This document shows, one piece after another, positions 6,388 to 43,125 of a DNA stretch of 48,708 nt (position 1 is its first letter; the number at the start of each line of letters is the position of its first letter). This DNA is from an uncultured Bacteroides sp. Its GTDB lineage: Bacteria; Bacteroidota; Bacteroidia; Bacteroidales; Bacteroidaceae. The stretch lies in assembly GCA_947074275.1 (NCBI GenBank), contig CAMTPA010000017.1:1-48708 (forward strand). Direction: 5' to 3'. Made by a program: the position numbers and the translations under genes. The notes under the pieces are model-generated. The model had not been told where the DNA came from. It saw only the letters and a program-made list of their open reading frames with translations, and searched no databases.

Positions 6388-8922
6388 TTAGTTGCTGCTG
6401 CCACCACCTTCACTGCCTTCGCTTTTCACGTCGTCGTTGTGTATGGTGCGCGATGCTTTCTTCACACTTGCTTTCAGTTCGCCAATGCGATAACTGATAC
6501 TTGCTCCATAACGCATTCTCGAATATTTATTGTCAAGGGTGTTTCTGAATCCCTCGCCATCAACAGTTTGTTTGTAGTGCATATACTTATTGATGAAGTT
6601 GGAAGCGAAGATGCTTGCCGTCAATCGCTTCTCTTTCAAGAACGATTTGTTGATACTGATTTGATAATTGTAAAAGCTGCTTCCTTTGCCTTGCAGATTG
6701 ATGGTAGGAGTAGCTCCCATCACATTGAGAGTGGCTCGTATGTCATACGGAAGTGTCTGCTGAATACCACCGTATGCAAAGATTGACCAACCGCTGTTTT
6801 TCAGATTCTGGGCGGGGCTTCTCAATTCCGAATAGTTGAGATTGAAGTTGACGTATATACGTGTTTTGGGCGAAGCGTTCCAATTCACATATCCATCCAA
6901 TCCAGCCACCTTGCTTTTGCCAATGTTTTCGTAGGTAGAAAACAAAAACTCGTGACCTGCCACTTCGTTGTTTAGTTCGGGCACTATTTCGCCTGTCTTC
7001 ACCAAGCGCGACACTTGCTGAATGCCGTTGTTGTTGAACGAATAGCGAAGTGAAAAATTCATATTAAACTTTTGTGTGAAGTTGCTATAACTCAAGGTCA
7101 CAGCGTGGCTTTTTTCACTTTCCAAGTCGGGATTTCCTTTCGATATGCTTGTAGGGTTAGCATCGTTCACATAAGGGTTTAGATACCATATTCCCGGTCG
7201 CCATATTCGCATATTGTAGCCTAAGCGCAAGTTTGACATATCGTTGAGCTTGTAGCCAACGGTGGCGGATGGCACCACGTCGTTGAAATTTACTTTGAAG
7301 TCCTCGCCCTTTCCTACCAAAAACTTCACGTGTTGCATTGTGTGCTCGTAGCGCACACCTGCTTTTCCCGAAAACTGGTTCACCTTGACCGAATAGCCCA
7401 AGTAGGCTGCCAATATATCGTTGAGGTGCTTGTAGTGGCTGCTTCGGTCTAAGTCGAGGTTGTATGCTCCCGTAGCAGTTTGTTCGTATCTCCAGTCTTC
7501 GCTGGTGTTGTTTCGTAAGATGTATTTCGCCCCTCCCTCTATGGTGTTGTTTTTGCCTATTGGGGTAGTGTAGTCTGCCTGCACTGTTTGCTCTATGGTC
7601 TTTTGTTTTCCGTCCAATTGCAGGTTGTTCAGTTGCAACAGCTCTTCCCATTGTGGCGATAACTCCTGCGGTGTATAATTGTAGTTGGTATATCCATCGG
7701 TGTTGCTGGGGCGTGCATTCACGTTGTACGAAAGGGTGAACATCCGCTCTTTGTTGCGCGACGAGACACGTTGATAATCAAGGTTTCCTCTTATCGAATA
7801 CCATCCGTTTTTGTTTCTGCTCTCCGAGCCATAACGATAATCGTAGCTACTTTCGGTCAATGGCACATCAGCCATCCAAAATTGGTTCTCTCCGTTGGAG
7901 TTGTTGTTTCCGCCAAACACACCAGCCGAAAGTGTGATGAGCCGCAATGTGTCAATTTCATAACTCGCCTCTACGTTGCCCCACTGAAAGGTATTCTTGT
8001 TTTTCAGATAGCCTTGCATTCCTATCTCTTTCTCCACATTTCCGTTTTCATCGATGTTTTCGCGCAGGTTGTTTATAAAAGATTTGGGTTGTTTTACGCT
8101 GTTCAAGCTGTAGTTCACCGTAAATGTGAGTTTGTTTTTCTTGATGGTGGCATACACGCTTCCGCCTCCACCGTTGTTGCCTCCGTTGGCACTAAATGTA
8201 GCGGTGTAGCCCTCGAATCCGCCGCCAATGGTGACGATGTTGAGAATGCCACCAATACCTTCTGCATCATATTTAGCTCCGGGGTTGGTAATCACCTCAA
8301 TGTGCTTGATGGAGTTGGCTGGAATACTTTTCAGCACCTCCGTTGGGTTATCGCTCATCATGTTGTTGGGCCTTCCATTCACGTGTACTTTGAAGCTGCT
8401 ACTACCGTTCACCTTGATGTTGTCTTCGCCATCTACGGTCACCATCGGCACCTTTTTCAGCATCTCAAGCAGCGAGTTGGTTTGCGAGTCGGGGTCGTCT
8501 TGTATGTTGTATTCTATCTTGTCGAGGTCTACCTTCACCAACGGTTTTTGCGCTACAATCTCCACTGCGCCCAGTTCGTTGGTGGCCTCTGCGCTATACA
8601 GTGTGCCTAAGTCTACCACCTTTTCTGTGGCCAAACTAAAATGGCGTACCACGGGCGATTTACCTATCGAAGTGATGTGAATAGTATATTCGCCCGAAGC
8701 GGTGGCGAAGCTTTCGTTGAAGCCTCCATTCATATCGGTCACGGCCATTTTCACCGCTTTGTCGGGGTTGTTTTTTGTCGCTATTTTTATGGTAGCGTAG
8801 GGTTCGGCCTCTTGGGTCAGTGAGTCTACAAGCATTCCCTTCACGGTGTATGTGGTGTTTTGTCCCAATACTCCCAATGCGAAAAAAGCGAAGAGTGATA
8901 AAAGTAACAATCTGTTTTTCAT
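6388..8922 (-). CDS. TonB-dependent receptor-like outer-membrane beta-barrel protein
   Basis: An outer-membrane protein of 844 residues. After a signal peptide (cleavage near ALGVLGQ, residue 21) comes a carboxypeptidase-regulatory-like beta-sandwich at about residues 27-110. A plug-like domain at about 125-230 contains VKVHVNG-type strands and IEVITNPGAKYDAEGIGGIL, followed by a long barrel with alternating aromatic strands. This layout fits the 'outer membrane beta-barrel family protein' group related to SusC/TonB receptors. No SusD partner is adjacent, so the cargo is unknown. The C-terminus is an acidic and glycine-rich tail instead of the usual terminal aromatic. Confidence 0.85.
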   Translation of the reverse strand: MKNRLLLLSLFAFFALGVLGQNTTYTVKGMLVDSLTQEAEPYATIKIATKNNPDKAVKMAVTDMNGGFNESFATASGEYTIHITSIGKSPVVRHFSLATEKVVDLGTLYSAEATNELGAVEIVAQKPLVKVDLDKIEYNIQDDPDSQTNSLLEMLKKVPMVTVDGEDNIKVNGSSSFKVHVNGRPNNMMSDNPTEVLKSIPANSIKHIEVITNPGAKYDAEGIGGILNIVTIGGGFEGYTATFSANGGNNGGGGSVYATIKKNKLTFTVNYSLNSVKQPKSFINNLRENIDENGNVEKEIGMQGYLKNKNTFQWGNVEASYEIDTLRLITLSAGVFGGNNNSNGENQFWMADVPLTESSYDYRYGSESRNKNGWYSIRGNLDYQRVSSRNKERMFTLSYNVNARPSNTDGYTNYNYTPQELSPQWEELLQLNNLQLDGKQKTIEQTVQADYTTPIGKNNTIEGGAKYILRNNTSEDWRYEQTATGAYNLDLDRSSHYKHLNDILAAYLGYSVKVNQFSGKAGVRYEHTMQHVKFLVGKGEDFKVNFNDVVPSATVGYKLNDMSNLRLGYNMRIWRPGIWYLNPYVNDANPTSISKGNPDLESEKSHAVTLSYSNFTQKFNMNFSLRYSFNNNGIQQVSRLVKTGEIVPELNNEVAGHEFLFSTYENIGKSKVAGLDGYVNWNASPKTRIYVNFNLNYSELRSPAQNLKNSGWSIFAYGGIQQTLPYDIRATLNVMGATPTINLQGKGSSFYNYQISINKSFLKEKRLTASIFASNFINKYMHYKQTVDGEGFRNTLDNKYSRMRYGASISYRIGELKASVKKASRTIHNDDVKSEGSEGGGSSN

Positions 8923-9072
8923 AATTCCAATACCTTTTTTTTATCTGAACTTTTATGATTTATCCCGTTAGACGTTCGGTTGGTATAGATAATTGCAGAT
9001 AGTACGCTGATTTAGTTAATGTTAACATAGAAGAGGCGTGCAGTGAAAAAAGGTATAGAAAGCTGTTTTGGT

Positions 9073-9160
9073 GGCAAGCCCTATCTACCGACCTGGCAAG
9101 GCCTACCTACCAAGCTGGAAAGGCCTACCTACCGAACGGAGAAGGCCTATCTACCAAATG
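9073..9160. repeat. tandem array of four 22-bp repeats (family A, locus 1)
   Basis: Four direct units begin at 9073, 9095, 9117 and 9139, exactly 22 bases apart. Each carries the core (A)AGGCCTAYCTACC, with the first slightly diverged (AAGCCCTATCTACC), followed by a 5-6 base variable tail. The array lies 3' of the DUF4010 gene and upstream of the TonB-receptor-like gene. The same core recurs at 26018-26097 and 33012-33097. Confidence 0.85.
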
Positions 9161-9188: not shown

Positions 9189-10484
9189 TTAGAGCAGATA
9201 AAATAGCAACAGCAAAATGGCGTTTGCCCCGATGATGCTTCCGAAACCGCCCAATATCCACGGGCGAAGCGAACTGCCTTTGCCCGAAAAGAAAAGAGCG
9301 TAACACAGGTTGACTGCCACGTTGCTGATGATGGCTTGCATACAACACGCCGTGATGACCGTAGCCGCCACACTTCCGGGGTTTTGCAATAGATTGAGTA
9401 TGAATGGGGTGATGTCGCTGCATCCTGCCACAAACGAAAGGGCTTTCAGACCGCCTGTGCCCAAATAGAGCACTACGAAATGGGTGATGATGGTGAACAC
9501 CACAAAAAGCAAAGCAAATATCAATGCCACCTTAAATTCGAGTGGGTTGCTGCTGTCGTCCTCTTCATTCACAATGGTCACCTCACCACGTTTTTTGGCT
9601 TTGCCATAGATGAACCAAGCCACACCCCCCGACACGATAGCCATAACAAGTAGGTAGGGGTAAATATCGTGGAAGATGCGTCGGCTAAAGATGAACACCA
9701 ACACCAAAAAGCGGACAAACATCATACAGACTGCTATCAGCATAGCGGCGGTGTATTCGGCTGCGTGTCCATTGCCTGCTTTCTTGCTTTTGCGTGCCAA
9801 CACCGAGATAGTGGCCGTGCTGCTATACATTCCGCCAATGATGCCCGAAACCAATACGCCCGATTCGCGAAACACGTATCGCTTGAGCAAATAAGAAAGG
9901 TATGAAATGCCCGAAACCACCACCGTGGCAAGCCAAATGGAGTAGGGAGTGAGATTGATGCCGGGAATGATATTGGTGTGAGGAAGTATGGGAAGGATGA
10001 TGCCGCTGATAGCAAGAAACTTGGCAAGGGTTATCATCTCGTCGTTTTTCATTCGCTGCACCAGCTCGGTGAAGGTGTGTTTTAGCTCGGTGAGGGTGAG
10101 CACCACTACTACCACCAACACGTAAAACCACGAGGGTTGAGTGTCGACAATGGGAGCCAAGCAATAGGTGATGAGCGCAATGACAATGGTGGTGATGCCG
10201 AAGATGTGAAACTGGGTTTGCTTCACATAGTAGTTTATCGCCAGCAAGATGCCTAACACCAATCCGCCACCCATAAACAGGCGCATATCCTCCTTGTCGA
10301 GTATATAGAGCAGATAGCCCAATATACCGATAAAGGTAAAAGTGCGGTCGGTGCCAAAGTGTGTCGTCTCTCCTTCGCGCTTCAGAGTGATGCGCCTTTG
10401 CGACAGCCCGATGAGCAAAGCGAAGATAGTGACCAACACAAAGCTAACCAATTCGCGTGGCAGATAATCGAATATTTCATCCAT
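9189..10484 (-). CDS. MgtC/DUF4010-type integral membrane protein
   Basis: A 431-residue polytopic inner-membrane protein. The N-terminal ~130 residues resemble MgtC/SapB proteins (FALLIGLSQRR, GTDRTFTFIGILGYLL). The remainder matches DUF4010, with motifs such as VSGIIGGMYSSTATISVLAR near residue 215 and SFVAGCSDITPFILN near 355. About 12 hydrophobic segments are visible. Members are proposed to influence divalent cation or pH homeostasis but the activity is not established. A -7 promoter element lies about 28 bases upstream of the start. Confidence 0.85.
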   Translation of the reverse strand: MDEIFDYLPRELVSFVLVTIFALLIGLSQRRITLKREGETTHFGTDRTFTFIGILGYLLYILDKEDMRLFMGGGLVLGILLAINYYVKQTQFHIFGITTIVIALITYCLAPIVDTQPSWFYVLVVVVVLTLTELKHTFTELVQRMKNDEMITLAKFLAISGIILPILPHTNIIPGINLTPYSIWLATVVVSGISYLSYLLKRYVFRESGVLVSGIIGGMYSSTATISVLARKSKKAGNGHAAEYTAAMLIAVCMMFVRFLVLVFIFSRRIFHDIYPYLLVMAIVSGGVAWFIYGKAKKRGEVTIVNEEDDSSNPLEFKVALIFALLFVVFTIITHFVVLYLGTGGLKALSFVAGCSDITPFILNLLQNPGSVAATVITACCMQAIISNVAVNLCYALFFSGKGSSLRPWILGGFGSIIGANAILLLLFYLL

Positions 10485-18181: not shown

Positions 18182-18273
18182 ACAACACCCGGATGTTGTG
18201 ATAGAAAACACCCGGGTGTTGTGGTATAAAACATCCGGGTGTTGTGGTGCAAAACATCTGGATGTTGTGATAG
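18182..18273. repeat. tandem array of four 23-bp palindrome-cored repeats (family B)
   Basis: Four units begin at 18182, 18205, 18228 and 18251, exactly 23 bases apart. Each contains AACAYCYGGRTGTT; in the second unit this is the perfect 14-bp palindrome AACACCCGGGTGTT. The linkers are GTGGTATAA-like or GTGATAG-like. The array is preceded at 18172-18181 by TCTACCTACC, which resembles the core of repeat family A. Confidence 0.88.
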
Positions 18274-22190: not shown

Positions 22191-23450
22191 TTAATCGGCT
22201 CTAAGTGCTTCGATGGGACGTATGCGAACGGCTTTGCGTGCAGGGAAATATCCTGCCAACGTGCCAGCTATAACCAAAGTGAGTGTAGCTTGAATGGCTA
22301 TCGACAAATCTACCGTAGGGTCGTGAAACACGGTGGAAGACCACATCCCATTGTCCATTGTCTGATTGCCAAATTCCACGTTCATCCACTCGGTCACTCC
22401 AATGCCTGCTACCATTCCTAAATAGCCAAAGAAGGTGGTGATGACAACGCTCTCTACAATGATGAGCCAAAGGATGGAGCGTGGTTTTGCGCCCAAGGCT
22501 TTGCGGATGCCAAACTCACGTGTTCGCTCTTTTACCGTGATTAGCATAATGTTGGACACACCTACAATGCCACTCAGCAAGGTGAAGATACCGATGACCC
22601 ACAATGCTGTGCGAAGAATGCTCATAGCACCTTGACTTTGCAAGTATTGAGTGAAGCGATTCCAGATCCAAATAGAACTTTTGTCGGTGGGGTCGAAGCG
22701 GTGATTGCTGCCCATTATCTTGCGGAAGTTTTCTTCAAAAGCTTCGTTCACCTCTTCGCTCTCTAAGTTTTTGGTAGAGAACACAAAATTGTGCAGTTTA
22801 TCTCCTTTTCCATAAATGGTTTGCAAGGTCGAGAAAGGTATCAGCCCGTCGTTGTCGGCACTGGTGGCATCGTCGTTGTAAAGCCCCACTACTTGAAACA
22901 TCACTCCATTTACATTGACAAACTCCCCAATAGGTTCTTTCTTCGATTTCTCGAAAAGCACTTCGGCAGTACGTTTGTGTAGCACTATAACCTTGCGTCG
23001 TTGCTCCAAGTCGAGTTTGTTGATGAAGCGTCCGGCATAGCTTTTCGAGGCTTCCATCTCCAAGTAGTTGGGATAAATTCCGGCTAAGCCGATGTTTACG
23101 TACTCTTGCCCGAAGCTTACATTTTGCGAACCCTGATAGACGGTTGCGCCGATGGTTATCACATTGTTTTGAAAGTGCTGTTGGGTGGAGGTTATATCCC
23201 GATTGTCAAATTGGATTCGTCTTCCTTCTTTCAGCCCGTCAAACGATTTGGTGGTTCTGCCGGGGAATATCTTGATGGAGTTGTATGCTCTGTCGCTCGA
23301 TTCCATCTCGAAAGCGTGGATGATGCCATTACCTGCACCCAGTAGCACAATCAGCATAAAGATGCCCCACGCTATGGCGAAACCCGTCAGGCTGGTGCGA
23401 AGCTTGTTGCGCTTGATGGTGCTGTATATCTCTTGCCAAATATCTAACAT
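22191..23450 (-). CDS. MacB-like ABC transporter permease (first of pair)
   Basis: A 419-residue paralogue of the next gene with the same plan: helix at ~22-42 (LTGFAIAWGIFMLIVLLGAG), periplasmic core, three C-terminal helices, VKERTREFGIRKALGAKPRS near 310 and a terminal RIRPIEALRAD. The two permeases are clearly homologous but diverged along their length, so this is an old duplication, not a recent one. Only ten bases separate them, and 29 bases separate this gene from the ATPase. Confidence 0.92.
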   Translation of the reverse strand: MLDIWQEIYSTIKRNKLRTSLTGFAIAWGIFMLIVLLGAGNGIIHAFEMESSDRAYNSIKIFPGRTTKSFDGLKEGRRIQFDNRDITSTQQHFQNNVITIGATVYQGSQNVSFGQEYVNIGLAGIYPNYLEMEASKSYAGRFINKLDLEQRRKVIVLHKRTAEVLFEKSKKEPIGEFVNVNGVMFQVVGLYNDDATSADNDGLIPFSTLQTIYGKGDKLHNFVFSTKNLESEEVNEAFEENFRKIMGSNHRFDPTDKSSIWIWNRFTQYLQSQGAMSILRTALWVIGIFTLLSGIVGVSNIMLITVKERTREFGIRKALGAKPRSILWLIIVESVVITTFFGYLGMVAGIGVTEWMNVEFGNQTMDNGMWSSTVFHDPTVDLSIAIQATLTLVIAGTLAGYFPARKAVRIRPIEALRAD

Positions 23451-23479
23451 AATAATATGGTGTTTAAAAGAAAAGGGTG

Positions 23480-24196
23480 TTATTTCATAAATCCATTGAT
23501 GCCAAACGGCGAAGCGTCGTGATTGTGATTCTCTTCGATACGCTCGATAACACCATCTTTGATGTGAACTATCTTGTCGGTTTGATTGGCCACGCCGCTT
23601 TCGTGGGTCACCACCACGATGGTCATTCCCTGCGAGTGAAGTTCTTTGAGAATCTGCATCACCTCTACCGATGTTTTGCTATCCAGTGCCCCTGTGGGTT
23701 CATCGGCAAGGATGATGTCGGGGCGGGTGATAAGCGCGCGAGCTATGGCCACACGCTGTTTTTGTCCACCACTCATTTCATTGGGCATATGGTGCGCCCA
23801 CTCTTTCAGTCCCAGTTTGTCGAGGTATTCCAACGCCAATGCGTTTCGTTTTTTGCGGTTCACGCCTTGATAGAACAGAGGGAGTGCCACGTTTTCCATT
23901 GCGTTTTTAAACGAAATGAGGTTGAACGATTGAAATATAAAGCCAATCATCTTATTTCTATATTCGGCGGCTTTTGTTTCGCTCAAGTTCTTTATCAATG
24001 TGCCGTTCAAGTAATATTCGCCCGAGTCGTAATTGTCTAAGATGCCAAGAATGTTGAGCAAGGTAGACTTTCCCGAACCCGAAGACCCCATAATAGATAC
24101 AAACTCGCCTTTGCCGATGTGGAGGTCTATCCCTTTCAATACGTGTAGTGGCGCACCATTATAATAGGTCTTGTTGATGTCTTTTAAGTGTATCAC
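23480..24196 (-). CDS. ABC transporter ATP-binding protein, LolD/MacB type
   Basis: A 238-residue ATPase that powers the two permeases downstream. Walker [10 protein letters not shown] is at residues 37-45, the Q-loop [10 protein letters not shown] at 87-95, the signature [14 protein letters not shown] at 142-154, Walker B IILADEPT at 161-168 and the switch His198. The family exports lipids, peptides or drugs through MacAB/TolC-like assemblies. A histidine-containing tail ([10 protein letters not shown]) follows the core. It is the first gene of the five-gene operon, divergent from the glucokinase gene. Confidence 0.95.
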
Positions 24197-25497: not shown

Positions 25498-25938
25498 ATG
25501 AAAATGAAATCTTACGTATCCGTTCTTCTGTTTTCGCTGCTTGCGACAATCACAAGTTGCAGCAAAGATAGTTACACGGCTCCCGAAATCACCGTGGCAG
25601 CATCATCTACTTTCGTGATGGACGCAAATGCCTCTGTTATTATTCCTTTCACATCAAACCCCGCCGATGCCGACTTGTCTGCACTCACCATCCGTTGCTA
25701 TGATGCCACCGCAAGTGGTGCAATCACCCCCGGAATGGTATATGGCTTGAAGATAGCATCTGTTGGAACATCGAGCGCAAGCGGTGCTTATATGGCCAAT
25801 GTAGTGATAGTAGATGCCAATGGCACACGCTTCACCCCAGAACAAGGCAAAAGATACCGATTCACGTTTGCCGAATCATTCTTTTATATCAATGGCAGCA
25901 AAAGCGACGAGTTTGTAGTGACTTTCTCGCAAAACTAA
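25498..25938 (+). CDS. Small lipoprotein of unknown function
   Basis: A 146-residue lipoprotein (LLATITSC, Cys21) with a beta-rich, low-charge body from TAPEITVAA to the end, about the size of one immunoglobulin-like or BACON-like domain. I do not recognise the family. It begins 148 bases after the glucokinase stop, beyond that gene's terminator, and has its own strong terminator, so it is probably transcribed alone. Codon 3 is also ATG and could be the start. Confidence 0.75.
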   Translation: MKMKSYVSVLLFSLLATITSCSKDSYTAPEITVAASSTFVMDANASVIIPFTSNPADADLSALTIRCYDATASGAITPGMVYGLKIASVGTSSASGAYMANVVIVDANGTRFTPEQGKRYRFTFAESFFYINGSKSDEFVVTFSQN

Positions 25939-25993: not shown

Positions 25994-26017
25994 GTGACTA
26001 CACGTTTGCCCTTTGCT

Positions 26018-26097
26018 GGCAAGGCCTATCTACCGCGCTGGCAAGGCCTTCTCAGGTCGGTAGGTAGGCCTTGCCAGCAAGCTACATAGACCTTGTT
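26018..26097. repeat. family A 22-bp repeats, two forward and two inverted (locus 2)
   Basis: Forward units begin at 26018 and 26040 (22 apart); inverted units begin at 26059 and 26081 (22 apart). GCTGGCAAGGCCTATCTACC (26015-26034) and its near-exact reverse complement (26059-26078) match at 19 of 20 positions and would form a very stable hairpin. The last unit is the most diverged (GCTACATAGACCTTG). Confidence 0.85.
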
Positions 26098-26247: not shown

Positions 26248-26607
26248 TTATTTCGCTGTGTTAACTCTTTTTTCTTTGATTCTTGCTTTCTTACCAGTAA
26301 GCGCACGCAAGTAATACAACTTAGCGCGACGAACTTTACCAACTTTGTTCACCTCGATGCTGTCGATAGCAGGCGATTCGATTGGGAAAATTCTTTCTAC
26401 ACCCACAGTACCAGACATCTTACGCACTGTGAAGCGTTTTTTCTCACCGTGACCAGCGATTTTGATAACAACACCACGATACAACTGTACACGCTCTTTG
26501 TTACCCTCGATAATACGATATGCTACTGTTACAGTATCACCCGCTTTGAATTTTGGATGTTGTTTGCCGGTAGCAAATGCTTCTTCTGCAATTTTAATTA
26601 AATCCAT
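26248..26607 (-). CDS. rplS: 50S ribosomal protein L19
   Basis: A 119-residue ribosomal protein found at the 30S-50S interface. Recognisable segments are [20 protein letters not shown] near residues 20-39, [20 protein letters not shown] near 45-64, the conserved [18 protein letters not shown] near 68-85, and [19 protein letters not shown] near 93-111. Length and order are normal for bacterial L19. Here it is a single-gene unit with its own promoter and terminator, not part of the rpsP-rimM-trmD operon seen in many bacteria. Confidence 0.98.
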
Positions 26608-28421: not shown

Positions 28422-31400
28422 ATGAGAAAATTTGTCATAGTAAGCATTGTTCTGCTGATGCAGTTTGTTTCTGTACACTATGCAGGGCAACACCGAACAC
28501 CCTCGCTCAACTACTTGCTCGAGTCACCATCTACGCCACAAATCGCAAGTGGCATACAGCAGCAAGAGGCTTGTAAGCAATGGGTCGATTCCATTATGGA
28601 CAAGCTTTCTTTGAGAGAGAAAATAGGTCAGCTATTCATCTATACGATTGCGCCTTTAGACACCAAGCACAACTTGAACCTGCTGCACGAGGCCGTGAGC
28701 ACCTACGATGTAGGTGGGCTTCTTTTCTCGGGCGGACAGTTGCAAACACAGGCAGCCCTCACTAATCGAGCACAAGGGCAGGCCAAGGTTCCGCTTCTCA
28801 TCACCTTCGATGGTGAGTGGGGTTTGGCTATGCGCCTCAAAGGTACACCCAACTTTCCACGCAATATGGTGTTGGGTTGCATCACCAACGATTCGCTAAT
28901 CTACGAATATGGCAAAGAGATGGCGCGCCAGTGTAAGCAGATGGGAGTTCAGGTGAACTTTGCTCCTGTGGCCGATGTAAATATCAATCCCAAAAACCCA
29001 GTTATCAACACACGTTCGTTTGGCGAAGACCCACAAATGGTGGCTCAAAAAGTGATAGCCTACGGCAAAGGATTGGAAAGTGGCAATGTGCTTTCGGTAT
29101 CCAAACACTTCCCAGGACATGGCGACACCGACAAAGATTCTCACTATGCGCTTCCCGTGCTTCCATTTTCGCGTCAACGCTTAGATAGCATCGAGATATA
29201 CCCTTTTGATGCCGCTATCCGTGCTGGGTTAAGTGGTATGATGGTGGGGCATTTGTGCGTGCCTGCTTTAGAAAAAATCAAAGGTTTACCCGCTTCACTC
29301 TCACGAAGTATTGTCACCGACTTGCTTGCCGATGAGTTGGGTTTCAAAGGGTTGGTTTTCACCGATGCACTGGCTATGAAAGGAGTGGCCGGCAATAAAG
29401 ATGTGAGCCTGCTCGCCTTGAAAGCCGGAAACGATATGGTGCTGGCTCCGCGTAATATCAAAGAGGAGATTGATGCGGTGGTGCGAGCGGTGCATCAAGG
29501 CGATTTCTCGCGCGAGGAGGTAGATGCCAAATGCCGCAAGGTGCTGACCTACAAATATGCTTTGGGGCTGTATAATAAACCACACATCCAGCAATCGGGG
29601 TTGGAAAACAGAATTAACACGCCCTATGCGCAAGAGTTGGTGAAGCGGCTCAACTTGGCGGCAATCACGGTGCTGAGCAACAAGCAACATACACTGCCAT
29701 TACCCGTTGAGAAAGAGGGCGAAAAGAACACCATCGCTCTGCTCGAAGTGGAAGGGAAAACCTCATTGAACCCATTCAAGCAAACGATTGAAAAATATGC
29801 TCCATTTCGTTCATTCAAACTTACCAAAGCTTTGCCACTGGCCGAAAGAAAGCAACTTATCGCATCGCTATCGGGCTACTCTCAAATAGTGGTGGCTATC
29901 AGCGAAAACAACATTGCCGATTTTCAGAGCTTCTTCAATGAGTTGGCGGCTTCTCCATCACGCTTGTCTACCATTTACATTTGCTTTGCTCAGGGCAAGG
30001 CTCTTGCACAGATAGAAAAGGCGGTTGCTCAGGCTCAGGCGGTGGTGCTGGCTCATTCGCCCAATGTAAACGTGCAAACACAGGTGGCAAATGTACTTTT
30101 TGGCAAAGCTACTGCCGATGGTAGACTATCGGCAAGTATTGGAAACTTATTTACCACGGGCGATGGTGTGACCATCACTCCCGAAACCTCTGCGTATGTG
30201 ACACCCCGAAAGACCGAAATATCTGCTGTTTCGATGGATAGGGTAGATGCAATAGCTAAAGAGGGTATAGCGCAAGGTGCCTACCCCGGCTGCCAAATAG
30301 CGGTGATGAAAGATGGTGAGCTGATTTATCAGAAATCGTTTGGCACGCATCAAGGTGCTGGTAGTCAAGCGGTGCAAAACAGCGATTTGTACGATTTGGC
30401 TTCGCTCACCAAAACGAGTGCCACGCTATTGGCTTTGATGAAACTGTATGATGGAGGACGCTTCAACCTATCAGACAGAATCTCGCAACACCTCACTTGG
30501 CTAAAGGGTAGCAACAAGGAGAATATCACCATCCGAGAACTGTTGTATCATCAGTCGGGGCTTCCGGCCAGTATCACCTCTTATCAGAACTTGATAGATA
30601 AAGACTCGTATGCGGGCCGACTATACTCGAACAGACGTGACAGTAAATATACGGTGCAGGTAGGCAACACGCTTTGGGCGAACCCTGACTTTAAGTTTTT
30701 CGAGGGAATGACTTCGCTCACCCAAACCACCGATTGTTCGTTGCAAGTGAGCGAAGGGTTGTGGGTACACAAGAGCTTTGCCGACACCATCCGCAAGAAT
30801 ATTATCGAAGTGCCACTCAAGACGAAGCAATACAGATACAGCGATGTTGGCTTTGTGCTGCTCTATCAGTTGGCAGAGCAACTTGCTGGTGTGCCGATGG
30901 ATAAATACTTGCAGCAGAACTTTTATGAACCGATGGGGTTGGAAAGAACCACTTACTTGCCGCTCCAGCGTTTTGCGAAAGAAGAAATTGTGCCTTCGTC
31001 GCACGATCGCTTTGTGCGCAAGGAGGTGCTGCGCGGCTATGTACACGATGAAACAGCTGCCTTTCAAGGGGGGGTGACTGGAAGTGCTGGCCTGTTTTCG
31101 AATGCCGCCGAGGTGGCAAGTATCTACCAAATGCTGCTCGATGGGGGCGTGTGGCGAGGAAAACGCTACTTGAGTGAGGAGACGTGCCGCTTGTTCACCA
31201 CCGAGAAGTCGAAAGTCAGCCGCCGTGGATTGGGATTTGACAAGCCCGAACCGAATCCGCAGAAAACAGGACCTTGCTCGCCCTCTACGCCCAATTCCGC
31301 TTTCGGGCACACGGGTTTCACCGGCACTTGCGTGTGGGCCGACCCTTCCAATAATCTGGTTTATGTTTTCTTGAGCAATCGGATTTATCCAAGTATGCTC

Positions 31401-31481
31401 AATCGAAAACTGATGCAACTCGACATTCGCCCCAACATACAAGAGGCTATATACGAAGCCCTCGGCCGCAAAAAGAAATAA
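28422..31481 (+). CDS. NagZ-type GH3 beta-N-acetylhexosaminidase fused to a beta-lactamase-fold domain
   Basis: A 1019-residue exported two-enzyme protein. The N-terminal GH3 domain (about 50-400) has the NagZ-specific KHFPGHGDTDKDSHYALP near residues 227-244 and nucleophile Asp in VFTDALAMKGV near 314. It should cleave GlcNAc from peptidoglycan fragments. A GH3 sandwich-like linker follows. The C-terminal class-C-beta-lactamase-fold domain (about 605-1010) has the serine motif SLTK (Ser661, Lys664), a YSD motif near 806 and HTGFTGT near 964; such domains usually act as peptidases, esterases or transpeptidases. A transporter gene follows 33 bases later. Confidence 0.93.
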   Translation: MRKFVIVSIVLLMQFVSVHYAGQHRTPSLNYLLESPSTPQIASGIQQQEACKQWVDSIMDKLSLREKIGQLFIYTIAPLDTKHNLNLLHEAVSTYDVGGLLFSGGQLQTQAALTNRAQGQAKVPLLITFDGEWGLAMRLKGTPNFPRNMVLGCITNDSLIYEYGKEMARQCKQMGVQVNFAPVADVNINPKNPVINTRSFGEDPQMVAQKVIAYGKGLESGNVLSVSKHFPGHGDTDKDSHYALPVLPFSRQRLDSIEIYPFDAAIRAGLSGMMVGHLCVPALEKIKGLPASLSRSIVTDLLADELGFKGLVFTDALAMKGVAGNKDVSLLALKAGNDMVLAPRNIKEEIDAVVRAVHQGDFSREEVDAKCRKVLTYKYALGLYNKPHIQQSGLENRINTPYAQELVKRLNLAAITVLSNKQHTLPLPVEKEGEKNTIALLEVEGKTSLNPFKQTIEKYAPFRSFKLTKALPLAERKQLIASLSGYSQIVVAISENNIADFQSFFNELAASPSRLSTIYICFAQGKALAQIEKAVAQAQAVVLAHSPNVNVQTQVANVLFGKATADGRLSASIGNLFTTGDGVTITPETSAYVTPRKTEISAVSMDRVDAIAKEGIAQGAYPGCQIAVMKDGELIYQKSFGTHQGAGSQAVQNSDLYDLASLTKTSATLLALMKLYDGGRFNLSDRISQHLTWLKGSNKENITIRELLYHQSGLPASITSYQNLIDKDSYAGRLYSNRRDSKYTVQVGNTLWANPDFKFFEGMTSLTQTTDCSLQVSEGLWVHKSFADTIRKNIIEVPLKTKQYRYSDVGFVLLYQLAEQLAGVPMDKYLQQNFYEPMGLERTTYLPLQRFAKEEIVPSSHDRFVRKEVLRGYVHDETAAFQGGVTGSAGLFSNAAEVASIYQMLLDGGVWRGKRYLSEETCRLFTTEKSKVSRRGLGFDKPEPNPQKTGPCSPSTPNSAFGHTGFTGTCVWADPSNNLVYVFLSNRIYPSMLNRKLMQLDIRPNIQEAIYEALGRKKK

Positions 31482-31514: not shown

Positions 31515-32963
31515 ATGAGTCCACTTGCCGTTATTGTCACGATGTTGGCATACTTCGCACTGTTGTTCACTATCTCTTATTTTGCCGCACGCAAGGCCGA
31601 CAACGCCAGTTTCTTTACTGGCAATCGTAAACAGCCGTGGTATGTGGTGGCGTTTGCTATGATTGGTGCCAGCATATCGGGTGTCACCTATGTGTCTGTG
31701 CCCGGCATGGTGGCTACCAGTGGTTTCTCCTATTTGCAAATGGTGCTGGGCTTTGTGGCGGGGCAGTTTATCATCGCTTTCATCTTAGTGCCTCTTTTCT
31801 ATCGGATGAACTTAGTGTCCATTTACGAGTACCTCAACAACCGCTTTGGATTCTCCTCTTATCGCACGGGAGCTTGGTTCTTCTTCATTTCCAAAATGTT
31901 GGGGGCTTCGGTGCGTTTGTTCTTGGTGTGCCTCATTCTTCAACTGCTGGTGTTCGAGCCTTGCAAGTTGCCTTTCATACTCAATGTAGTCATCACCGTT
32001 GCCATCGTGTGGCTCTACACGGTGCGTGGCGGTGTCAAGTCGCTCATCTGGACTGATACGCTCAAAACCACCTGCTTGTTGGTGTCGGTCATTCTGTGCA
32101 TCTACTTCATCTCCTCTCGCCTCGATATGGGGCTGCTGCAAAGCATACGCTCTATTGGCGAAAACGATATGTCGCGCCTCTTCTACTTCGACGACTACAA
32201 TGACAAACGATTCTTTTTCAAACAATTCTTGGCAGGTGTGTTTACCGTTATCGCTATGACGGGACTCGACCAAGATATGATGCAACGCAATCTAAGTTGC
32301 AAGAACTTCAAAGATTCGCAGAAAAATATGATAACCAGCGGTGTGCTGCAGTTCTTCATCATTGCCCTGTTCCTGATATTGGGCGTATTGCTTTACAGCT
32401 TCGCAGCAAGCCAAGGCATCGGCTCACCGTCTAAAAGCGACGAGTTGTTCCCAATGATTGCCACGGGCCACTATTTCCCGATGATTGTGGGCATACTGTT
32501 TGTTGTGGGGCTCACAGCTTCGGCCTATTCGGCGGCTGGCTCTGCGCTCACCTCGCTCACCACCTCTTTCACCATCGACATTCTCGAGGCCAAAGATAAA
32601 ACTGAAACAGAAATCAAAAAGATACGCACCAAAGTACACGTGGGAATGGCCTTTGTGATGGCAGTCACCATCTTCGTGTTCGACCTGCTCAACAATACCA
32701 GCGTGATAGATGCCGTCTACATCTTGGCAAGCTACACCTATGGTCCCATCTTGGGGCTGTTTGCCTTCGGCATATTCACCAAGTGGCACGTGTGCGATCG
32801 CTACATTCCCGTGGTGGCAATCTTGTCGCCCGCCCTTTGCTTCATCTTGCAGCGCAACTCTGAGCGTTGGTTTGGTGGCTATCAATTTAGCTACGAGCTA
32901 CTTTTGTTCAATGCTCTGTTCACCTTCATCGGGCTTTGTTTGTTGGTGAAACGTAAACAATAA
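31515..32963 (+). CDS. Sodium:solute symporter (SSS family)
   Basis: A 482-residue inner-membrane protein with about 13 hydrophobic segments and the LeuT-like SSS signature: MIGASISGVTYVSVPGMVAT at residues ~52-71, the conserved GMTGLDQDMMQRNLSCK-type sodium-site region near 248, and LTASAYSAAGSALTSLTTSF near 335. It imports a solute driven by sodium. The substrate is not evident. Its place directly after a NagZ-like enzyme gene, with a 33-base gap, suggests uptake of sugars or muropeptide pieces, which is inference. Confidence 0.9.
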   Translation: MSPLAVIVTMLAYFALLFTISYFAARKADNASFFTGNRKQPWYVVAFAMIGASISGVTYVSVPGMVATSGFSYLQMVLGFVAGQFIIAFILVPLFYRMNLVSIYEYLNNRFGFSSYRTGAWFFFISKMLGASVRLFLVCLILQLLVFEPCKLPFILNVVITVAIVWLYTVRGGVKSLIWTDTLKTTCLLVSVILCIYFISSRLDMGLLQSIRSIGENDMSRLFYFDDYNDKRFFFKQFLAGVFTVIAMTGLDQDMMQRNLSCKNFKDSQKNMITSGVLQFFIIALFLILGVLLYSFAASQGIGSPSKSDELFPMIATGHYFPMIVGILFVVGLTASAYSAAGSALTSLTTSFTIDILEAKDKTETEIKKIRTKVHVGMAFVMAVTIFVFDLLNNTSVIDAVYILASYTYGPILGLFAFGIFTKWHVCDRYIPVVAILSPALCFILQRNSERWFGGYQFSYELLLFNALFTFIGLCLLVKRKQ

Positions 32964-33011
32964 AAATGCTAATCTGTAAATGCCTCATTATCAGTGCGCA
33001 ATGAAGCGTTT

Positions 33012-33097
33012 GGTAGCAAGGCCTACCTACCGCGGTAGGTAGGTCTTGCCAGCTTGGTAGATAGGGCTACCCACCAAGCGGAGTAGGCATACTTGTT
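33012..33097. repeat. family A 22-bp repeats with near-perfect hairpin (locus 3)
   Basis: One forward unit (GCAAGGCCTACCTACC, 33016-33031) faces an inverted unit (GGTAGGTAGGTCTTGC, 33034-33049), forming a 16-bp hairpin with one wobble. A second inverted unit starts 22 bases later at 33056 (GGTAGATAGGGC), and a poorly matched third may lie near 33078. The cluster is 50 bases after the symporter stop. Confidence 0.82.
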
Positions 33098-33207: not shown

Positions 33208-34008
33208 ATGAAGAAAAACATTTTAGCCTTAGTGATGATACTTTCGACCTTTGCTTTGCAAGCAAAAACGTTGATAGTGTATTATAGTTTTACGAACAAT
33301 GTGCGGACTGTTGTGCAAGATTTGGCTACACAGATTCAAGCAGATGTATTGCGTATAGAACCGAGAGAAAAAGGGCTTGACTATGCTGCCAACAATTATG
33401 CCATTGGCAGTGCATTGATAGCCGCTATCCGTGCCAATCCCGATGAAGCCTCCTCTTATCCTGAGATAGACCCTGTAACGGTCAATCTTTCGGACTATGA
33501 TGTTGTTATTGTAGCTGCACCGCTCTGGTGGAACAATATGGCTGCTCCATTGCAAACTTTTTTGTTTCATTACGGCGAGCAAATGTCGGGCAAAAACATA
33601 GGTCTTATTGTGTCGAGTGCCAGTAGTGGCATCAGCGGAGTAGAGAGTGATGCAAAGCGTCTCATATCGAATGGCCGCTTTCTTGAGCCAACTCTTTGGA
33701 TTCGCTCCTCCCAAACCTCATCTTGCCACACGATGATTGCAAACTGGCTGGACAATATAAACTACAACGACCTATCTACATCTATACACCCTGCATCCCT
33801 CAGCACAAACGTAGAGATACAATCGGTGCCGGGCGAAATTAAAATAGTAGGAACGTTTACTACTGCCTCCATCTACAACTTTTCGGGCAATAAGATTTTG
33901 GAAACTTCCGATGCGCTTATCCACACGTCCAATCTCAACAGTGGAAACTATGTGATTTATGTAAACAGCCCCAACGAAACCGTTACCAAAAAGATTTATA
34001 TTCAATAA
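33208..34008 (+). CDS. Exported flavodoxin with type IX secretion-like C-terminal domain
   Basis: A 266-residue protein. A signal peptide (MKKNILALVMILSTFALQA) is followed by a flavodoxin domain (about 20-180): TLIVYYSFTNNVRTVVQDLA holds the FMN phosphate loop, and VVIVAAPLWWNNMAAPLQTF near 94 is typical of the Flavodoxin_4 group. The last ~75 residues are a separate beta domain with SIYNFSGNKILETS, then LNSGNYVIYV and a terminal KKIYIQ, the pattern of type A sorting domains that direct proteins through the type IX secretion system. A flavin redox protein acting outside the cytoplasm is inferred; the partner is unknown. Confidence 0.85.
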   Translation: MKKNILALVMILSTFALQAKTLIVYYSFTNNVRTVVQDLATQIQADVLRIEPREKGLDYAANNYAIGSALIAAIRANPDEASSYPEIDPVTVNLSDYDVVIVAAPLWWNNMAAPLQTFLFHYGEQMSGKNIGLIVSSASSGISGVESDAKRLISNGRFLEPTLWIRSSQTSSCHTMIANWLDNINYNDLSTSIHPASLSTNVEIQSVPGEIKIVGTFTTASIYNFSGNKILETSDALIHTSNLNSGNYVIYVNSPNETVTKKIYIQ

Positions 34009-43043: not shown

Positions 43044-43125
43044 GCGGCTGTGGCGTAATTGGTAGCCGCGCCAGACTTAGGATCTGGTGTCTCGCGACGT
43101 GGGGGTTCGAGTCCCTTCAGCCGCA
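43044..43125 (+). tRNA. tRNA-Leu, anticodon UAG
   Basis: An 82-base class II tRNA. The acceptor stem GCGGCTG pairs with CAGCCGC, with discriminator A at 43125. The anticodon arm CCAGA-CTTAGGA-TCTGG places TAG at the anticodon. A long variable arm and a GGTTCGAGTCC T-arm follow, as expected for tRNA-Leu. The CCA end is not encoded. Confidence 0.96.

Follow-up and report, generated by a model that had tools for sequence, protein, structure and literature searches.

Why should a period of exactly 22 bp recur in short arrays between genes at unlinked places of one bacterial genome, and are such arrays read, moved, or merely left behind? The question arises from a 48,708-nucleotide stretch of an uncultured Bacteroides sp. 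genome (the window), in which an earlier note had described four units starting at 9073, 9095, 9117 and 9139. These units are present with their period of 22, and TRF finds the same array (9072-9155, period 22, 3.8 copies, 82% matches). The array is better delimited as an element with the ends TTTGG...CCAAA than by the original bounds of 9073-9160 (Table 1), and the core thought to be kept throughout reads AGGCCT in three units and AGCCCT in the first. Two further sites assigned to the same core also carry AGGCCT-like centres on a 22-bp lattice, but their orientation is mixed, so that they are not the simple direct repeats they had been taken for. All three elements, which we call family A, are intergenic by codon-based gene calls, in line with the earlier description.

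Table 1. Coordinates of the array elements in the window and of the genes next to them
Feature	Position	Strand	Description
Family A element	9067-9158	+	Four 22-bp lattice centres: AGCCCT at 9077, AGGCCT at 9099, 9121 and 9143; all units in the same direction; ends TTTGG...CCAAA
Gene flanking the 9067-9158 element	6388-8922	-	
Gene flanking the 9067-9158 element	9189-10484	-	
Family B array	18184-18273	+	23-bp lattice of four units, each made up of the palindrome AACAYCCGGRTGTT and a 9-bp spacer
Family A element	26012-26083		Three AGGCCT centres: 26022, 26044, 26066
Neighbour of the 26012-26083 element	25498-25938	+	ORF
Neighbour of the 26012-26083 element	26248-26607	-	L19 gene
Family A element	33009-33078		Centres AGGCCT (33019), AGGTCT (33041) and AGGGCT (33063); mixed orientation
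Neighbour of the 33009-33078 element	31515-32963	+	
Neighbour of the 33009-33078 element	33208-34008	+	

Both of the downstream elements were trimmed: initial bounds to 26103 and 33100 had taken in weak fourth centres (AGACCT at 26088 and AGGCAT at 33085, respectively). The units of the 26012 element are inverted and produce a near-perfect foldback; the element overlaps by 33 bases a plus-strand ORF in the mechanical ORF list, where the L19 gene lies on the minus strand. Allowing up to two mismatches, the core matches 11 times in the window compared to 0.92 matches expected, and none of 100 shuffles reached 11. A fourth array in the window, family B, has a similar architecture and differs from family A in sequence and period. 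Elsewhere in the window, a single 1019-aa ORF at 28422-31481 combines glycoside hydrolase family 3 and Pfam Beta-lactamase domains.

The source assembly, a draft, comprises 161 contigs with 3.34 Mb in total and is 92.6% complete. The genome-wide search that the earlier note had recommended found 103 exact copies of the core AGGCCTAYCTACC (52 and 51 on the two strands), compared to 0 and 0 for the reversed control. From clusters around 100 of the 103 core places, fetched with their flanks, we assembled 96 candidate groups and retained 63 elements, after setting aside 30 groups with a single centre, which were probably chance matches, a false one in L126 (removed by hand) and two that had no strong centre. 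Counted from first to last strong centre, 32 elements span three lattice positions, 22 span four, seven span two and two span one. Two of the 63 lie at contig ends (L125 at the end of C85, L130 at the end of C124) and resemble foldback artefacts of library or assembly, and the L130 foldback continues into what we take to be an Illumina adapter; because both look like library foldbacks, they are to be discounted.

Family A keeps to the spaces between genes and shows little further preference in its siting. With gene calls based on codon usage and made for this analysis, all 63 elements fall outside genes, in loci that are 84.5% coding, and a cruder ORF list (at least 100 aa) gives an overlap for two of the 63. 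A called gene stands on both sides of 55 elements, and on one side only of the other eight. The 55 placed elements occupy 33 tandem, 15 divergent and seven convergent gaps, a mix not significantly different from that of element-free gaps of at least 150 bp (27 tandem, nine divergent and eight convergent). Within 29 tandem gaps of a second gene-caller run, no bias of direction relative to transcription was seen (13 elements with the genes, 16 against). Elements lie somewhat nearer 3' than 5' gene ends (median 108 versus 180 bp; 108 versus 144 in the 29 tandem gaps, paired test p=0.064). No binding protein or mover emerged from the best 25 of 152 families among 95 uncut flanking genes, where no family occurs more than four times; response regulators are commonest (four), followed by LuxR-type and sigma-70 domains (three each). 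Since that tally covers the best 25 of the 152 families, a lone transposase could escape notice in it.

The spacing of the units is rigid while their sequence is not. Scoring 192 centres singly and without assuming a lattice, we found that every one of the 121 neighbour spacings of up to 34 bp is exactly 22. Inside the 63 elements and up to 60 bp from them, 153 exact AGGCCT copies lie on the lattice and one lies off it (in L117, 17 bp from its neighbour and with poor arms); L072 holds a further off-lattice candidate. Sixteen bases separate successive centres, with the consensus ATCTACCGAGCTGGCA in one direction. Among the 54 elements with at least two inner units, 38 are uniform in orientation, 14 contain inverted units and two contain an undecided one; inversion about AGGCCT preserves the lattice because AGGCCT is its own reverse complement. 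Over the 22 positions of 132 oriented units (five of the 137 were undecided), the share of the commonest base ranges from 0.45 to 1.00 (chi-square 614), and at the most variable positions up to 55% of units depart from the consensus. C6, A8, C10 and G16 are conserved at 0.95-0.98, compared to 0.45-0.58 in columns 11-13 and 18, a contrast much less affected by site-finding than the CCT/AGG columns of AGGCCT, which it partly enriches.

Family A appears to be private to its species. The strict lattice, at one mismatch, occurs 119 times in the source genome and is absent from the 157 congener genomes searched, of which 92 are at least 90% complete with little contamination. The refuting condition given in the earlier note is thus half borne out: relatives lack the sequence and repeat only the geometry. 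The 13-base core alone has one further occurrence, in G011, among 60 relatives searched, and AGGCCT-N16-AGGCCT occurs once each in four relatives with different letters in between. Within the source genome, contig C4 and contig C49 each hold one member of a pair that matches without a difference for 88 bp, GTTTGG to TATAGCTA, between unrelated flanks. This single case, seen in a draft assembly, indicates that a whole element was copied. That exact periodicity shared by unlinked loci reflects selection or spreading, as first proposed from the window, gains support from this pair, from the uniform 22-bp spacings and from the genome-wide number of cores. A viral origin was considered and rejected: four matches to the lattice pattern in IMG/VR are single hairpins and form no arrays. 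These viral contigs (L263-L266) carry single AGGCCT-bounded 28-bp hairpins that are terminator-like, and two of them hold the same sequence in opposite orientation.

Arrays of comparable geometry are common in the genus. We sampled 100-140 kb from each of seven chosen congeners and found 46 of 322 intergenic segments to be self-similar, with the best lag at 21-23 bp in 30 of the 46 (22 in 17, 23 in 11 and 21 in two). The same script returned one self-similar segment of 113 in E. coli K-12 (lag 29, none at 21-23), none of 130 intergenic segments in mixed bacteria, and eight of 107 in other families of the order, three of them at 22-23. Block-shuffled controls gave no events in each congener, in E. 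coli or in mixed bacteria, and three in the other families of the order. From one congener to the next the unit sequences are mostly different, and some families are shared. At up to two mismatches, the family B palindrome on its 23-bp lattice occurs in 31 of 158 genomes of the genus (reversed control 0), with very uneven numbers of lattice pairs (1 to 63 per genome, 44 in the source genome), and TTCTCA-N6-TGAGAA on a 22-bp lattice occurs in 30 of 158 (13 in the source genome; reversed control 0). When spacing was left free, the few cases counted showed 22 only for TTCTCA (5/5) and GAAACA-N3-TGTTTC (3/3), 23 only for family B (three of three congener loci and three of three source loci), and both 22 (twice) and 11 (three times) for TGTGCCA; leaving out overlapping loci did not alter this outcome. 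This near-constant spacing across differing sequences suggests that spacing may matter more than letters.

Other properties of the wider class are less uniform. Unit palindromy is weak overall, with z of at least 2 in 15 of 79 arrays of period 21-23 compared to 5 of 74 arrays of other periods, in a count that extends beyond intergenic DNA, takes in two E. coli and four mixed-bacteria arrays of period 21-23 and counts two arrays twice from overlapping stretches. Gap types in eight congeners show no significant bias (48 arrays, two inside genes and five at stretch ends), and a cruder-ORF run gave the same result. The reversed-control pattern of the AGGCCT-spacing search matched 30 times in G028, mostly in 11-bp units TCCGGAGATGA, which in several places are arranged as inverted arms; G064 has a similar array. 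The source genome contains two more intergenic 22-bp arrays, at L133:5952-5999 (TGATAACTGTTAACAACCGACG) and L134:1704-1776 (TGAAACTTTTGTTTCAAGGAGG); as their sequences are again different, this genome has more than three array families. Outside the 22-bp class, G118 carries A/T-rich 8- and 16-bp tandem repeats (ACTTACAA and AACTTAAA) in several intergenic places (L169, L166).

Comparison of orthologous gaps indicates how quickly the letters turn over. The gap between the ROK-kinase and L19 genes, which holds the 26012 element in the source genome, contains TRF arrays of period 21-23 in 7 of 20 congener stretches, and their letters vary, with one array family common to G109 and G114 and another to G014 and G104. 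G109 and G114 form a close pair, 91.7% identical over aligned blocks, and in one convergent gap one of them has four 22-bp TTCTCA units and the other four TGTGCCA...TGGCACA units, between which blastn finds no match; a second gap of this pair likewise holds unrelated arrays. At 23209-23829 of the joined G109 stretch, about 600 bp of sequence are unrelated between the two genomes, each with a 22-bp array inside, and here the G114 sequence contains inverted arms that match exactly over 50 and 30 bases, whereas in G109 no exact arms reach 14. Events occur in 6 of 41 orthologous gaps of G109/G114 (four in both genomes) and in 10 of 42 of G014/G104 (three in both), several of them with other lags and possibly coding. 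In the L19 gap, all copies of one motif (GTTTC) changed together between G109 and G114. A species-wide shift of the GTTTC motif between the two was not borne out, counts of GTTTCCTCGGTG versus GTTTCCCCGGTG being 5 versus 2 and 3 versus 5, and given this mixed genome-wide tally the joint change in the L19 gap may be local.

Several explanations compete for these data. Structured RNA 3' ends or terminators, forming hairpins in transcripts, would agree with the position of elements nearer 3' gene ends and with folding that is far more stable than in shuffled sequence for either strand (mean z -4.36 and -4.25), but the AGGCCT palindromes alone would yield such energies, and a hairpin has no need of a fixed 22-bp period. 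The test that separates hairpin from duplex is arm-to-arm complementarity beyond chance, and family A half-arms proved less complementary than shuffled ones both across AGGCCT centres (3.83 versus 4.39 of 8, n=200) and across linkers (3.07 versus 4.36 of 8, n=137), with 0 of 1,000 shuffles as low in either case; the terminal arms show no excess (5.75 versus 5.67 shuffled). For the TTCTCA family, pairing within units is at chance (1.19 versus 1.23 of 3), while complementarity between neighbouring centres slightly exceeds that of shuffles (2.89 versus 2.51 of 6, reached in 5 of 1,000 shuffles), both over the 73 distinct rows listed, and one G014/G104 unit has, by eye, a paired C-G to T-A change that speaks for RNA and against a duplex reading. 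Further counts against hairpins in transcripts are the siting of 15 of the 55 placed elements between divergent genes, the indifference to transcription direction and the lack of any Rfam match to the arrays at gathering score (the only hit anywhere in the window, at 43044-43125, is a tRNA). The role in RNA 3' ends named in the earlier note is accordingly disfavoured, and we regard it as very unlikely. A phase without indels, half-sites without complementarity, both orientations and direction-blind siting together argue that the units are read as duplex DNA. A neutral minisatellite, grown by replication slippage with 22 bp as a frozen accident of common descent, has on its side the varying unit number between close species (two versus four units of a 23-bp array at one G014/G104 site, by eye, and about three versus one in G109/G114), as also described between strains for the BrickBuilt repeat in passages of PMC4596501. 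Slippage should, however, leave a unit closer to its neighbours in the array than to units of other arrays, and this is not seen: likeness is 11.16 of 16 within and 11.08 between elements, a value reached in 152 of 500 permutations, which counts against fresh local duplication. The 121 spacings without an indel and a period common to different families also weigh against it, and we think this account improbable, although inheritance of a frozen 22-bp period from one ancestor could account for the shared geometry without present constraint.

The remaining two alternatives concern the mover. REP- or BIME-type repeats mobilised by a RAYT (REP-associated tyrosine transposase) or its relic are, in passages of PMC3733652 and PMC3116915, short extragenic palindromic repeats present in many copies, clustered in opposite orientations and in some cases species-specific, and family A resembles them in its dispersed intergenic siting, palindromic centres, privacy to one species and mixed orientation. 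Of the 63 elements, 62 contain GTAG or CTAC, and CGTC-tagged REPs are described in Bacteroidetes in a passage of PMC3733652. Yet GTAG lies within the arms of family A and not as an unpaired end tag, CGTC or its complement (GACG) is found in 0 of 63 elements, the 22-bp phase is strict and the arms are anti-complementary, and Y1_Tnp (PF01797) has no match in the 92.6% complete source assembly compared to matches in 5 of 14 control genomes. REP sequences, in the same published passages, lie mainly between unidirectional or convergent ORFs, whereas family A shows no significant preference for convergent or tandem gaps; a RAYT-driven origin thus has little probability in our estimate. Somewhat less remote, though still unlikely, is a minisatellite riding in a MITE, as in BrickBuilt of Porphyromonas gingivalis, in which an IS5-type transposase would move the cradle element and the 22/23-bp array would travel along. 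The passages of PMC4596501 that we draw on describe BrickBuilt as an intergenic, dispersed, species-restricted tandem repeat of 23-nt units, variable in number, within a MITE whose leader and tail have IS5-type inverted ends and whose target site duplication is variable, and note tandem repeats of 41, 23 and 22 nt in P. gingivalis W83. In the ROK/L19 gap of G009 (L205), a 541-bp MITE-like insertion absent from G068, with the inverted ends GAGTCTGTTTAAATT and GAGCCTGTTTAAATT and a TTA duplication, carries one array with a period of 22 and one with 21; MITEs are thus the carriers of some arrays. For family A, 61 of the 63 elements had enough flank for the corresponding comparisons, and among these 61 no inverted ends were seen beyond the lattice (flank similarity 3.11 versus 3.19, 2.97 versus 3.34 and 2.93 versus 2.90 of 10). 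Target duplications were likewise not seen at these filled sites, whose exact ends are uncertain: the longest repeat in common came to 4.90 versus 4.78 shuffled, and the best of many fixed offsets gave a 2-base match in 11 of 61 compared to 3.4 expected. The copied unit is, moreover, the array itself, at about 88 bp.

Among described systems, BrickBuilt is nonetheless the nearest to family A, and its host belongs to the same order, Bacteroidales. Iteron and centromere arrays are phased at about two helical turns and bound by dimers, and they occupy one or a few loci per replicon; family A is alike in phasing but dispersed over some 63 recovered places. CRISPR arrays consist of identical short repeats with unique spacers, and family A shares the rows of repeats, while its units are contiguous, diverged and without unique spacers. 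With BrickBuilt, as far as the passages of PMC4596501 extend, family A has in common tandem units of about 22/23 nt, intergenic siting and restriction to one species, and it differs in its units of mixed orientation around AGGCCT, in its mostly shorter length and in its lack of a recognisable leader, tail or inverted ends across the 61 elements, the identical pair ending with the array. With REP sequences, as described in the passages cited above, family A shares dispersal and palindromes, and it differs in RAYT, end tag and siting. A search of openly licensed literature returned no description of 22-bp family A arrays, and passages of the BrickBuilt account (PMC4596501) make no mention of a genus-wide class that changes its sequence; there is a fair chance that a class keeping its geometry is itself new.

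Of the three roles first proposed for the array, protein-binding arrays and a non-autonomous mobile repeat remain the best, and the two are mutually compatible. Our preferred reading, held with middling confidence, combines them: family A may be a dispersed intergenic element, private to its species and not autonomous, with units that are recognised as duplex DNA, probably as phased sites for a dimeric protein. An element measures about 70-92 bp, mostly with three or four lattice centres 22 bp apart, and its units, bounded by the AGGCCT palindrome, each carry two half-sites CCTnnCYAS; it thus forms a series of pseudo-dyads spaced by about two helical turns. Adjacent dyads would be bound from the same side of the helix by a sequence-specific dimeric protein, and this would account for absent indels despite many substitutions, and copies would be spread as whole elements by a mover. 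DNA in the supercoiled state of the cell has about 11 bp per turn, so that 22-23 bp would fit two turns; because the period varies between families (21, 22, 23 and 11), 'two turns' is approximate.

We hold with similar, evenly poised confidence that family A is one of several families in a wider genus class of 22/23-bp, sometimes 11-bp, intergenic arrays. More tentatively, and with some doubt, we propose that this class conserves geometry over sequence, with dyad half-sites about every 11 bp, units of 22-23 bp and letters replaced wholesale between close species at one and the same locus. If so, co-evolving DNA-binding proteins, or one protein with changeable specificity, would assemble on helically phased arrays, and the arrays would belong to a chromosome-organising or anti-invader system so far undescribed. 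The BrickBuilt repeat of P. gingivalis might then be one member of such a class. Repeats between the genes of gut-type bacteria tend to be set aside as species-specific clutter, and these arrays pose questions that can be tested: what recognises DNA at intervals of two turns, and what makes the letters change so quickly?
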